From Candidatus Faecalibacterium gallistercoris (GTDB taxonomy: Bacteria; Bacillota; Clostridia; Oscillospirales; Ruminococcaceae): a stretch of DNA of 42,648 nucleotides. The stretch covers positions 1-42,648 of the forward strand of contig DXBJ01000073.1 in assembly GCA_019116585.1 (NCBI GenBank), read 5' to 3'. Below the pieces are notes generated by a model. That model worked only from the letters and a program-made list of their open reading frames with translations. It did no database searches and was not told the DNA's origin. The translations under genes and the position numbers were made by a program. This document shows positions 1 to 29,727 of the stretch, piece by piece (the first letter of the stretch is position 1; the number at the start of each line of letters is the position of its first letter).

Positions 1-212
1 CAAATTTTGTCCCCAGGGACTGCGAAGCTGAGGCGCGTCCTGCGGACGAAACAGCCGAAGCGGAGCAGGGGCAGCGGTCTGCCTTTTGCAAGCCCGCTGC
101 GACGGGCGCAGCAAAAGCAGGGAACCGCAACCACCAGGGGGAAGGAATTTCTGTCCCGCGTATGCGGGCAGAAATGGGTTCCCCCTAAAGCGTGGCGCTT
201 TTGCGACACGCT
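1..212 (-). repeat. Four-hairpin repeat, copy A (edge copy, rearranged)
   Basis: The strand given is the one on which the element would end in its terminator hairpin. This copy keeps the AATTTTGTCCCCAGGG linker at the left edge, hairpin 3 (134-186, arms CCAGGGGGAA and TTCCCCCT) and hairpin 4 (189-212, AGCGTGGCGC / GCGACACGCT). Hairpins 1 and 2 would lie outside the window. About 115 bp (roughly 19-133) replaces the short GGGATA linker of the other copies and carries its own imperfect dyad (CTGCCTTTTGC / GCAAAAGCAG). Hairpin 4 ends 3 bases from the ribF stop codon, so the element forms the 3' end of the NusA/IF2 operon. Compare 21355-21561 and 42518-42648. Confidence 0.85.
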
Positions 213-17194: not shown

Positions 17195-17270
17195 GCCTCT
17201 GTAGCTCAGTTGGTAGAGCAGGGGACTGAAAATCCCCGTGTCATTGGTTCGATTCCGATCGGAGGCACCA
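17195..17270 (+). tRNA. tRNA-Phe (GAA)
   Basis: A 76-base cloverleaf including an encoded CCA. Acceptor arms GCCTCTG/CGGAGGC (one G-U pair), D-arm with GCTCAGTTGGTAGAGC, anticodon stem GGGGA/TCCCC with loop CTGAAAA giving anticodon GAA, and T-loop GGTTCGATTCC. It is the first gene of the cluster. Confidence 0.97.
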
Positions 17271-17273
17271 TAT

Positions 17274-17349
17274 GCGGCCGTAGCTCATCTGGTAGAGCGC
17301 CACCTTGCCAAGGTGGAGGTAGCGAGTTCGAGCCTCGTCGGCCGCTCCA
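17274..17349 (+). tRNA. tRNA-Gly (GCC), copy 1
   Basis: A 76-base cloverleaf with encoded CCA. Acceptor arms GCGGCCG/CGGCCGC, anticodon stem CCACC/GGTGG with loop TTGCCAA giving anticodon GCC, and T-arm AGTTCGAGCCT. It is identical over its full length to the copy at 17522-17597. Confidence 0.97.
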
Positions 17350-17350
17350 T

Positions 17351-17378
17351 GGGAGTGACAAGCATCACTCCTTTTTTT
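17351..17378 (+). terminator. Intrinsic terminator inside the tRNA cluster
   Basis: GGAGTGA and TCACTCC form a perfect seven-pair stem with a CAAGCA loop, followed by seven T residues. The T-run ends at 17378 and tRNA-Asp starts at 17379, so there is no room for a conventional promoter between them. Confidence 0.75.
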
Positions 17379-17455
17379 GGCCCGGTAGCTCAGTTGGTTA
17401 GAGCACCAGCCTGTCACGCTGGGGGTCGTCGGTTCGAGCCCGATCCGGGTCGCCA
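17379..17455 (+). tRNA. tRNA-Asp (GTC)
   Basis: A 77-base cloverleaf with encoded CCA. Acceptor arms GGCCCGG/CCGGGTC (one G-U pair), anticodon stem CCAGC/GCTGG with loop CTGTCAC giving anticodon GTC, discriminator base G. Its 5' end abuts the T-run of the preceding terminator. Confidence 0.96.
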
Positions 17456-17521
17456 ACAAAACCTACTTCCCGCAAGGGGAGCGCCCATGCAGGGCGGACG
17501 CAGGGTCAAATGCGTCGGTAT
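17456..17521 (+). other. tRNA spacer with two hairpins
   Basis: CGCCC/GGGCG (loop ATGCA) and GACGCA/TGCGTC (loop GGGTCAA) fold in tandem between tRNA-Asp and the second tRNA-Gly. Neither is followed by a T-run, so they look like processing or spacer structures. Confidence 0.5.
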
Positions 17522-17597
17522 GCGGCCGTAGCTCATCTGGTAGAGCGCCACCTTGCCAAGGTGGAGGTAGCGAGTTCGAGCCTCGTCGGCCGCTCCA
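17522..17597 (+). tRNA. tRNA-Gly (GCC), copy 2
   Basis: An exact duplicate of the tRNA-Gly at 17274-17349, including the CCA and the flanking bases TATGCGGCCG at its 5' end, which suggests a local duplication. The spacer after it carries a small GCGGG/CCCGC hairpin. Confidence 0.97.
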
Positions 17598-17625
17598 AAA
17601 ACGGGCGGGATTCCCCGCTCCACAT

Positions 17626-17700
17626 GGTGGCGTGGCCAAGTGGTAAGGCAAAGGTCTGCAAAACCTTCATTCACCAGTTCAAATCTGGTCGCCACCTCCA
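17626..17700 (+). tRNA. tRNA-Cys (GCA)
   Basis: A 75-base cloverleaf with encoded CCA. Acceptor arms GGTGGCG/CGCCACC, anticodon stem AAGGT/ACCTT with loop CTGCAAA giving anticodon GCA, discriminator T. It is the last tRNA and is followed by a terminator. Confidence 0.96.
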
Positions 17701-20582: not shown

Positions 20583-21311
20583 ATGATCTTTACCATCCCC
20601 GTCACCACACGGGTCGAAGATTTCGACCAGCGCGGCCTGCTGACCCCCACGGCGCTGCTGTCCATTTTTGAGAACACCGCCGTCCGCCACGCCGAGACCG
20701 TGGGCTATTCCCCCATGAACGACAGCCTGCGCAACGGCATGGCCTGGGTGATCACCAACTGGCGGGTGGAGATGGACCGCGCCCCCGCCTACGACGAGCC
20801 CTTCACCGCCAGCACCTGGCTGTGCAACAACCCCCGGCAGGCCACCCGTGAGATGCTGCTGCACAGCGCCGGCGGCGAGGTCCTGGCCCGGGGCCAGGCC
20901 AAGCTGGCCCTGGTGGACCGCAGCAGCAACAAGCCCTGCCTGCCCACCCCCGAGCGGCTGGCCGCCTACCAGCCCGAGCAGCGCACCGCCTTTGCCGACC
21001 GTCTGCCCCGGCTGCGCCCTCCCGCCGCCTGCACCGCCGTCAGCCCCGTGCTGCTGCGCCGCAGCGATATGGACTACAACGGCCACCTACACAACACCGC
21101 CTACCTGTCCCTGGCGCTGGACGCCGCCCCGCCCGAGGTGACGGCGGCCGGGGTGCGCACCTTCCGTCTTTCGTACCGCAGCCCCCTGCGTCTGGGCGAC
21201 CAGACCACCCTCCGGAGCTGCCCCCAGCCGGAGGGCTGGACGGCCGCCTTTGTCCGCGGGGACGAGGTCTGCGCTGTGGTGGCCGTCAACGAACAGTTGA
21301 AACCTCTCTGA
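20583..21311 (+). CDS. Acyl-ACP thioesterase (FatA/FatB-type, double hotdog)
   Basis: These enzymes release free fatty acids from acyl carrier protein. The 242 residues fit the bacterial two-hotdog form of the plant FatA/FatB family. The first hotdog begins TTRVEDFDQRGLLTPTALL with FENTAVRHAETVGYS and the conserved MAWVITNWRVEMDRAP. The second begins near residue 160 with RRSDMDYNGHLHNTAYLSLALD, which holds the conserved Asp/Asn/His residues of the active site. The ATG has a GAAGGAG ribosome binding site and lies 19 bases after recG, so the two are probably co-transcribed. Chain-length preference is not predictable. Confidence 0.88.
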   Translation: MIFTIPVTTRVEDFDQRGLLTPTALLSIFENTAVRHAETVGYSPMNDSLRNGMAWVITNWRVEMDRAPAYDEPFTASTWLCNNPRQATREMLLHSAGGEVLARGQAKLALVDRSSNKPCLPTPERLAAYQPEQRTAFADRLPRLRPPAACTAVSPVLLRRSDMDYNGHLHNTAYLSLALDAAPPEVTAAGVRTFRLSYRSPLRLGDQTTLRSCPQPEGWTAAFVRGDEVCAVVAVNEQLKPL

Positions 21312-21325
21312 TCTGTACACAAAGC

Positions 21326-21353
21326 AAAGGCGAGGCCCGAAGGCCCCGCCTTT
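21326..21353 (+). terminator. Hairpin after the thioesterase gene
   Basis: AAAGGCGAGGCC pairs with GGCCCCGCCTTT (one mismatch) around CGAA, 15 bases after the stop codon. The T-run is only three bases, so termination may be weak, with repeat copy B directly downstream. Confidence 0.5.
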
Positions 21354-21354
21354 C

Positions 21355-21561
21355 AGCGTGTCGCAAAAGCGCCACGCTCCAGGGGGAACCCATTTCTGCG
21401 CGCAGTCGCGCGACAGAAATTCCTTCCCCCTGGTATCCCCCTGGGGACAAAATTGAGCGCTGAACCGCGCACTCGCCGCAAGGCGGCTCGCACACTCTCA
21501 GCGCTCAATTTCCCTGTAGGTGTCCCGACCGTACGCACATGTCGTCCGGTCGGGACTTTTT
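21355..21561 (+). repeat. Four-hairpin repeat, copy B (complete), ending in a terminator
   Basis: Read on the plus strand the element has four stems. Hairpin 4 (21355-21378) pairs AGCGTGTCGC with GCGCCACGCT. Hairpin 3 (21379-21433) has arms CCAGGGGGAA and TTCCCCCTGG and an inner CGCGC/GCGCG stem. Hairpin 2 (21450-21511) has perfect 14-bp arms, AAATTGAGCGCTGA and TCAGCGCTCAATTT, with an inner GCCGC/GCGGC stem. Hairpin 1 (21522-21556) pairs GTCCCGACCG with CGGTCGGGAC around a 15-base loop containing CGCACATGTCG and is followed by TTTTT (21557-21561). It lies between the convergent thioesterase and pepV genes. Copies at 1-212 and 42518-42648 share the sequence and the folds. Confidence 0.9.
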
Positions 21562-21578
21562 GGTTTCACTGTGTTTTC

Positions 21579-22967
21579 TTAAAAGTCGATCTCTTCCAGC
21601 CGCAGCAGGGCCAGGATATAGATCTTGACCGACTGGAGCAGGGCGTCCACCGGGGCGGACTCGTTGGCGCCGTGCATGGGGCCACCAAAGCTGGGCAGCA
21701 CCATGTCGTGGCTCTCGGGCCCAAAGCTGACCGCATAGGGGAAGTGGCGGGCATAGGTGCCGCCGCCCATGGTGAAGGGCTTCTCCTGCTTGCCGGTCAC
21801 CTCGTTGTAGGTGTCGATGCAGGCCCGGATGGCCGGGGTATCCGCCTCGATATAGAAAGGGTCGGCGGCGTCCACGTCCTCCAGGGAGGCGCCCTCCCCC
21901 ACTGCCTGCCGGATGGCCGCGGCGATAGCGTCCCCATTGGTGGAGGTGGGGTAACGGCTGTCCATGGTCTGGACCATCCGGCCCTCCTGCATATACATCC
22001 GGCCGCCGATGATGGTCAGGGGACCGAAGGGGCCGTCGGAGGTGGCGATGCCCAGGCCCTCGCCGGCGGTGGAGCTGTGCAGCTTGCGGACCGCCTCCAG
22101 ATACCGGCGCTCGGTCTCGGTGCACAGGCCGCTGTCCAGCAGGTAGTCCACCACCAGGCCGATGGCATTGACCGTCCCCTCGGGGCTGGCGGCGTGGCCG
22201 GACTTGCCCCAGCCCCGCACCCGGACGCAGCCGTTCTCCGGCTCCAGGGTGATGTGGGGGGCGTTTTTCAGGCCGGCCATTTCGGCCTTGACCAGGGCGC
22301 TGGCCCGGTCGGGGACGGCGTTGTTGGCCACGCCGCCCTCAAACTCCAGGATCATCCCGTTGCAGACGGGGCTGACCAGCTTGCCGTGGAAATGCCCTTT
22401 CTCGCCGTTGCAGACCGGGAACTCGGCGTCGGGGGTAAAGCAGAAGGCCGGGGCCTTGTGGTGGGCCAGGTAGTATTCCACATCCCCCATGCCGGTCTCC
22501 TCGTTGGTGCCGGCCAGCGCCCGGATGGGGTAGCGCAGCGGCTGCCCCAGCTCCTTGAGGAACTTGAGGGTGTACAGCGTCGCCACCATGGGGCCCTTGT
22601 CGTCCAGCACCCCCCGGCCCAGGATCCAGCCCTCCTGCCGGCGCATCTCGAAGGGGCTGGCGGACCAGCCCTCCCCTGCGGGCACCACGTCCACATGGCA
22701 GATGGTGGCCAGATACTGGTCGGGGTCGGCGCCAGGCAGGGCTGCATAGCCGATGTAGCCCTCGCAGTTGCAGGTCTCCAGGCCCATCCGGTCCGCCAGC
22801 TCCAGCGTTTTGTCCAGGGCGGCCCGGGGCCCTGCCCCAAAGGGCGCGCCCTCCGCCGGCTGGGACTCCACGCTGTTGATGGCCACCAGCGCGGCGATGT
22901 CCTGCAGCATCTGCTCCTTGTTGGCCTCGATGAAGGCGTCTATCTTCCGATTCAGTTCCTGATCCAT
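21579..22967 (-). CDS. pepV: M20A dipeptidase PepV
   Basis: PepV is a cytoplasmic dizinc dipeptidase that cleaves a broad range of dipeptides with free N termini. The 462 residues match PepV length. The metal-binding motifs are ICHVDVVPAGEGW, WILGRGVLDDKGPMVA and AGTNEETGMGD (catalytic and bridging Glu pair), with FTPDAEFPV and a late His in FGGPMHGANES. The lid domain lies about 190-330. The gene is last in the MATE-exoA-MATE-exporter run. AGGAAT precedes the ATG. Downstream it converges on the thioesterase gene, with repeat copy B between them. Confidence 0.93.
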   Translation of the reverse strand: MDQELNRKIDAFIEANKEQMLQDIAALVAINSVESQPAEGAPFGAGPRAALDKTLELADRMGLETCNCEGYIGYAALPGADPDQYLATICHVDVVPAGEGWSASPFEMRRQEGWILGRGVLDDKGPMVATLYTLKFLKELGQPLRYPIRALAGTNEETGMGDVEYYLAHHKAPAFCFTPDAEFPVCNGEKGHFHGKLVSPVCNGMILEFEGGVANNAVPDRASALVKAEMAGLKNAPHITLEPENGCVRVRGWGKSGHAASPEGTVNAIGLVVDYLLDSGLCTETERRYLEAVRKLHSSTAGEGLGIATSDGPFGPLTIIGGRMYMQEGRMVQTMDSRYPTSTNGDAIAAAIRQAVGEGASLEDVDAADPFYIEADTPAIRACIDTYNEVTGKQEKPFTMGGGTYARHFPYAVSFGPESHDMVLPSFGGPMHGANESAPVDALLQSVKIYILALLRLEEIDF

Positions 22968-29624: not shown

Positions 29625-29727
29625 CAGCAGCGGGATGCAGGCTGTGCACCGCGGGAAAACTTCGCCTTCGTCCGCAGCACAACTCCCCGTTGATGCGGCA
29701 CTTAACGCGCACAGCCTTACTCTGTTG
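29625..29727 (-). promoter_or_regulatory. Tetrahydrofolate (THF) riboswitch
   Basis: The minus-strand leader of folT-folC shows the conserved THF aptamer pattern in order: GAGTA at the 5' side, P2 arm GGCTGTGC, then GCGTTAAGTG. The P3 stem follows (CCGCA...TGCTGCGG), then ACGAAGGCGAAG, GCGGTGCACAGCC closing P2, and GCATCC near the 3' end. P1 is CAACAG/CTGCTG with one mismatch. These conserved blocks match the THF-riboswitch class known upstream of folT in Bacillota. Ligand binding is expected to favour the downstream terminator and lower folate uptake. Confidence 0.88.

Follow-up and report, generated by a model that had tools for sequence, protein, structure and literature searches.

Insertion of mobile DNA at hairpins has been described for IS1272 and TnSha1, members of the IS1182 family from staphylococci, which choose their targets, terminators included, by shape and not by sequence, and TnSha1 has been found in both orientations at one terminator (PMC5678879, PMC4923244). 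As far as the accessible parts of these two papers go, IS1272 replaces its target and TnSha1 deletes part of the hairpin, and neither of them duplicates it (PMC5678879, PMC4923244). A further outcome, in which joining at the two 5' feet followed by gap repair duplicates the whole stem-loop (pathway b of Wan et al.), was drawn in 2017 as a possibility for IS1272, and according to the same partial text it was not seen there (PMC5678879).

The window analyzed here, a stretch of 42,648 nucleotides from the draft genome of Candidatus Faecalibacterium gallistercoris, contains a dispersed four-hairpin repeat; this observation, made in an earlier note on the same DNA, was confirmed. We propose that the repeat is probably a short non-autonomous, MITE-like mobile DNA element, inserted at terminator hairpins by structure-directed transposition that duplicates the hairpin. 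In the part of the open-access literature covered by our searches, which is no proof of absence, neither this element nor an observed whole-hairpin duplication has been described, and among the matches listed for Faecalibacterium repeats none mentions the genus.

All three copies counted in the window by the earlier note (A, B, and C) are present, with B at 21355-21561 (Table 1). Since copy A belongs to a longer form, in which an additional structured domain is present, the three do not represent one form: the short form measures about 207-217 bp (about 209 nt), and the long form about 318 nt, with the additional folded domain located between two hairpins. At about 210-320 bp, the element has the short, dispersed, and non-coding character of MITEs, and is too short and too filled with hairpins for a transposase gene. 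Both stem changes that had been singled out were found in the sequence, namely GTCCCGACCG/CGGTCGGGAC in copy B to GTCCCGTCCA/TGGACGGGAC in copy C and, in an inner stem, CGCGC/GCGCG in copy B to CCCGC/GCGGG in copy A. The H1 type of hairpin is also an element end in other genera, close variants of the H4 loop word occur on unrelated stems in relatives from other genera, and the G.U-pair helix of H3 with its GA/GA internal loop is not formed by the plus strand. In many other copies, TTTTTTGACA / TTTTTTGACAGTCTG is a T-rich end of the element's own. The far side of copy B is without the second hairpin copy seen at other insertions, and several contig ends of this genome, both window ends included, fall within copies.

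Table 1. Features of the repeat and its surroundings in the window.
Feature	Position	Strand	Evidence or remark
Copy B, short-form element as found	21355..21561	- (better-folding strand)	Covariance-model match 21355-21564, 246.4 bits; folds
H1, near-palindromic terminal hairpin AGCGTGTCGCAAAAGCGCCACGCT, one element end	21355..21378	-	
H2, long hairpin CCAGGGGGAA..TTCCCCCTGG, inner stem covarying	21379..21433	-	
H3, with GUGUGC/GUGCGC G.U pairs and GA/GA internal loop on the minus strand	21450..21512	-	
H4, hairpin with apical GACATGTGC (minus strand)	21522..21556	-	
TTTTT 3' of H4	21557..21561	+	Aligns with the empty-site T-run
Target terminator hairpin AAAGGCGAGGCCCGAAGGCCCCGCCTTT, directly adjoining H1 of copy B	21326..21353	.	
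Copy A, long-form element (3' part), cut by contig end; H2 and H1 at 133-212	1..212	+	
Copy C, H4, H3, and start of H2, cut by contig end	42510..42648 (start approximate)	+	
Acyl-ACP thioesterase gene, 3' end towards copy B	20583..21311	+	Pfam PF01643, E 2e-12
M20-family peptidase gene, convergent, 14 bases from model-defined copy B	21579..22967	-	Pfam PF01546, E 1.5e-23

The extra domain of the long form (L181, L145, L163, L156, and others; positions 1-132 of the window) comprises about 110 nt, in which variable stems are flanked by near-constant words, GCAAG and ACCGCAACC among them, and several such modules follow in succession in L124. Five loci of genome G193 (L258, L261, L265, L267, and L274) carry tandem two-unit forms with a variant H1 end hairpin as the joint. 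Lone intergenic H4-like hairpins occur in the genome of the window at about 3681-3715 of L197 (contig C11), where a T-run follows and the hairpin looks like the terminator of a gene, and at about 6228-6262 of L198 (contig C3). Apart from the repeat, the window has a THF riboswitch at 29626-29726 on the minus strand (86.3 bits) and five clustered tRNA genes at 17195-17697, of which two lie in an identical 79-base repeat.

The draft genome to which the window belongs (G000; 2.34 Mb in 81 contigs) gave 139 covariance-model matches, a number that includes partial and opposite-strand matches and may count twice a copy split by a contig end; there were 41 BLAST matches (40 of 113 candidates scored) and 49 exact sites of the H1 end hairpin. 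The covariance model, with a maximum of 39 scored candidates for each genome, detected the element in 11 of the 31 genomes that belong to the genus, and the same scan in 0 of 30 genomes outside it. Among 148 genomes of the family, wider scans with stricter filters found it in 8, and among 295 of the order in 4; the window's own genome is counted in each case, and G013, of the same genus, in the second. Copies were examined in six genomes outside the genus (G193, G160, G108, G187, G358, and G322, a genome of another family) and are diverged: most have an H1 end and a loop close to GACATGYGC with unrelated stems, and many begin near a word like CAGNCTGT, exceptions being L246, which is without H1, and L294, which is without a clear 5' word. 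Among the matches listed from an exact-pattern scan of genome contigs, the named loci are from Faecalibacterium, several of them chicken-named, except for two MAG contigs filed outside the genus, L163 and L107; the first of these is probably misbinned, to judge from its flanks, which are 99% and 95% identical to a Faecalibacterium contig. The assignment to Faecalibacterium is based on a copy in G021, a genome of the same genus, that agrees fully, along with its flanks, with a locus of Faecalibacterium sp. An121. The exact-pattern scan of viral contigs gave no match to the element, and none was found in plasmids and phages.

To characterize the target, we used 61 canonical copies, defined by their H1 end among the 111 that length, edge, and duplicate filters had left from 175 aligned rows. 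A hairpin of -15 kcal/mol or below adjoins 42 of these 61 copies, as opposed to 6 in a further-out stretch, 4 in shuffled sequence (one shuffle each), and 11 at the other flank, a control that can contain the second hairpin copy. Sequence comparison thus shows insertion at the foot of terminator hairpins, the sequences of which are unrelated; such a stem-loop target without sequence preference is a trait of IS1182/IS1272-type elements. The 59 copies with enough flank were placed in gene context with a codon-usage gene finder trained on four Pfam-matched genes: convergent genes enclose 26 of them, co-directional genes 16 and 10, and divergent genes 3, and for 4 no gene was called on one of the sides, so that convergent and divergent settings stand at 26 and 3 among the 55 copies with a predicted gene on both sides. 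Orientation to a co-directional neighbor is not fixed (10 co-oriented, 16 anti-oriented). Of the suggestion of a structured 3' UTR, the location mostly at predicted gene 3' ends is borne out, while the occurrence of either orientation speaks against it. We also rejected a fixed orientation relative to the sense of the terminator, in either direction, as the counts of T versus A runs beside duplicated hairpins (3 versus 9 in Faecalibacterium and 6 versus 6 in G193, ties left out) fix none.

Duplications were scored by local alignment of left and right flanks against mismatched flank pairs, with the 99.9% quantile as threshold. Significant duplication on both sides was found for 14 of 61 copies in Faecalibacterium, 15 of 18 in G193 (the sites passing end patterns and the duplicate filter, out of 31 loci), 3 of 6 in G160, and 1 of 2 in G108/G187. 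The duplicated piece is the terminator palindrome, of 20-42 bases with a median of 29 (32 copies at a slightly stricter cut), and the identity between the two hairpin copies ranges from 82% to 100%; L276 has an identical 26-base hairpin on both sides, and the same arrangement was recognized by eye in G322. A target-site duplication, as in MITEs, is therefore present, and since in many copies the whole hairpin stands on both sides, its variable length is about that of the hairpin. Most target-site duplications are short, with a length fixed by the transposase. That the duplication length follows the target hairpin points to cutting or joining at the feet of a folded target. No significant duplication was detected for 47 of the 61 Faecalibacterium copies, the window copy among them, and we assume age and deletion to be the cause; the second hairpin of the window copy may have been lost through recombination between T-runs. 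In L230, L271, and L163 the duplicated hairpins are not the same, the difference being either in the loop or a paired change of the stem, and for L163 this holds although the insertion looks recent.

Sites without the element were found at the same positions in related genomes. Three other species (G016, G012, and G002) have the two genes that flank copy B and no element, with an intact terminator hairpin and T-run at the junction. The copy at L133:5450 is absent from L112, with one hairpin in the empty site and two in the filled one, and the long-form copy of L163 is absent from L131, where flanks identical at 99% over 700 bases and 95% over 626 indicate a recent insertion. Two loci have a single hairpin in the empty site and a duplicated one in the filled site; in both, the loop letters of the two hairpin copies are not identical, which means that some of the copying was inexact or is not recent. 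L133:4142 and L112:6246 are one copy at the same place in two genomes and thus an older insertion. Other comparisons were messier, some with rearranged or different intergenic sequence. Together, the empty window site, the two further clear empty sites, and the target duplications show that the element is mobile, in agreement with the mobile miniature repeat proposed in the earlier note.

According to our preferred reading of transposition directed by target structure, an enzyme acting in trans would recognize the target through its hairpin or cruciform shape, the ends of the element would be joined to both 5' feet of the target hairpin, and gap repair would then copy the hairpin onto the second side. 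The terminator would remain for the neighboring gene, so that insertions would be tolerated and could accumulate, which would explain dozens of gene-end insertions in a compact genome without loss of termination. Compensatory change would keep the fold of the element, presumably because it is read by the mobility enzyme or by an intermediate (single-stranded DNA or RNA). Genome G193, with six contigs and many near-exact duplications, makes this mechanism testable.

Copy B is far more stable than shuffled sequence (z = -9.35 on the plus strand and -11.09 on the minus strand), and 0 of 200 shuffles on each strand were as stable. Covariation was analyzed in 51 distinct full-length copies at 55 base pairs that are predicted on both strands and have a Watson-Crick majority. 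The cells that depart from the majority pair comprise 243 other Watson-Crick pairs, 25 G.T, 7 A.C, and 16 other mismatches; the covariation of the stems is strong, and the compensatory change claimed in the earlier note is borne out. It is possible, if rather doubtful, that these changes arose when imperfect palindromes were corrected during replication with the hairpin as template, a process known in principle, and not through selection for the fold, an explanation compatible with mobility. It draws support from the hairpin copies of L230, which lie outside the element and show a paired difference that leaves the stem intact, but under it one would not expect the GACATGYGC loop word and the H1 end to return in different genera with the surrounding stems wholly changed, or the GA/GA internal loop of H3 to keep its letters in all 51 copies.

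The minus strand has the better consensus energy (-108.9 versus -84.0 for the plus strand) and is also favored by a helix with near-constant G.U pairs; an unbiased strand test comparing pairs with any G.U and pairs with any A.C was not significant (13 versus 7, p = 0.26). Strand-biased folding, to which this p value applies, is a point against our reading, as it is not predicted by a mechanism that involves double-stranded DNA only. A broader proposal is tentative, and we consider it rather unlikely as a whole: gut Clostridia might have a mobility system in which terminators are recognized by hairpin shape, the entire hairpin is duplicated, and every insertion leaves a working terminator; its driver would be an unrecognized kind of enzyme that works on a gene-less element in folded single-stranded form, possibly as RNA.

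As to the mobility enzyme, our best guess is a DDE transposase of the IS1182/IS1272 type. The element itself has no DDE transposase gene, the similarity of its ends to those of the family is weak, and in place of the hairpin removal without duplication of IS1272 and TnSha1, its hairpin is duplicated. Genome G160 has TGTCGAAAAA common to both element ends in inverted orientation (4 of 5000 shuffles were as good), a feature that appears weaker by eye in Faecalibacterium. A non-exhaustive search of H1 sites in the window's own genome and of G193 loci found no autonomous relative with the same ends: two exact H1 sites outside model matches were a truncated copy and a lone H1, and 20 further G193 loci had no gene-bearing form in the stretches examined. 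The H4-only matches in contigs C11 and C3 were likewise considered as an autonomous element, and none was seen.

A more specific alternative is that the element is a MITE of an IS1182-type insertion sequence of the same genus and is moved by its transposase. A 457-aa DUF772/DDE transposase of this type is 98.7-99.8% identical in G000, G021, and G013, the insertion sequence (L287, L289, and L290) being nearly identical across three genomes of different species, and in at least two of these loci (L289 and L290) it lies inside a palindrome. In the available text on IS1272 and TnSha1, of the same family, the hairpins targeted include several terminators. Against this stand the few loop bases, and not the hairpin, that are repeated at L289 and L290, the lack of any match to the DUF772 profile in the element-loaded genomes G012 and G160, and ends that seem to resemble those of the element weakly: between 19 and 2211 of 5000 shuffles reached the same similarity, according to which pair was compared. 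We regard an origin from this IS1182-type sequence as unlikely. A 325-aa DUF772 relative occurs in eight copies in G193; we rejected it as the source of the element, its ends being unrelated. Among the G193 copies (L288 and L292) there are three pairs spaced about 1.39 kb, beside sequence that looks like part of a resistance methylase gene.

Less likely still is an RNA-borne, SINE-like element, the RNA of which would be copied by a reverse transcriptase acting in trans and primed at the foot of the terminator hairpin. Such target-primed copying suits duplications of variable length, one strand folds better, and departures to G.U outnumber those to A.C (25 versus 7 cells), but the unbiased strand test cited above is not significant. 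DNA stem-loops are attacked by group IIC introns, according to the part of the source at hand (PMC10190682). RVT_1 matches were obtained in the copy-bearing genomes G021 (36 model matches of the element), G013, G019, G193, G160, G108, G187, and G074, and one of the G160 matches lies within a 421-aa open reading frame that looks to us like a group II intron reverse transcriptase. However, RVT_1 was not detected in three of the four most loaded Faecalibacterium genomes (G000, G016, and G012) or in G001, G002, G010, G014, G024, and G113, and the single G193 match starts at profile position 18, in a 347-aa frame; as several genomes are incomplete drafts, absence of a profile is soft evidence. Moreover, with orientation to co-directional genes not fixed, read-through from the host would not supply the RNA in many copies. 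Reverse transcriptase was rejected as the mobility enzyme, as it does not track the copy-bearing genomes, and so was a Y1 transposase (REP/RAYT, IS200/IS605 type) on the same ground: PF01797 had no match in the four most loaded Faecalibacterium genomes (G000, G021, G016, and G012), and G013 and G019 gave partial ones.

A regulatory or free-standing RNA family dispersed by chance is very improbable: the conserved fold and loop words and the long and tandem forms with further structured parts would suit it, but no Rfam family matches the element at gathering score, copies lie in either orientation to their neighbor genes, and there are recent insertion and target duplications. Two suggestions of the earlier note fell away. 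The window TTTTT aligns with the T-run of the target itself and the better-folding strand ends without a T-run, so a free-standing RNA of about 205 nt with a stem and TTTTT at its end is unsupported, and since the loop ACATGT is not constant (ACATGC in 6 and ACACGT in 1 of 18 copies of alignment A3), so is dimerization by kissing loops.

Short dispersed folded repeats with MITE features are also known as SPRITE, BOX, and RUP in Streptococcus pneumoniae, and SPRITE resembles a terminator and is enriched near gene 3' ends; as far as the accessible part of that report goes, neither a terminator target nor hairpin duplication is described for them, and for SPRITE a duplication could not be established (PMC3049150). 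The bcr1 and Efa-1 repeats belong to other genera, and the partial sources on them describe no terminator target. Group IIC introns integrate at DNA stem-loops as well, in the portion of the source consulted (PMC10190682), but they are ribozymes with a maturase, whereas our element is gene-less, has the hairpin on both sides, and has no match to Rfam group II intron families (at gathering score for the window and in E-value mode for the copies). There is also a likeness to IS1272 and TnSha1, since the element too appears to target hairpins and terminators by shape; as described in the parts of those papers at hand, they remove the hairpin wholly or partly, and IS1272 carries a transposase gene, whereas here the element is gene-less and the hairpin is duplicated. 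The class of target is thus already known, and what differs, judging from these comparisons, is the outcome, a duplication.
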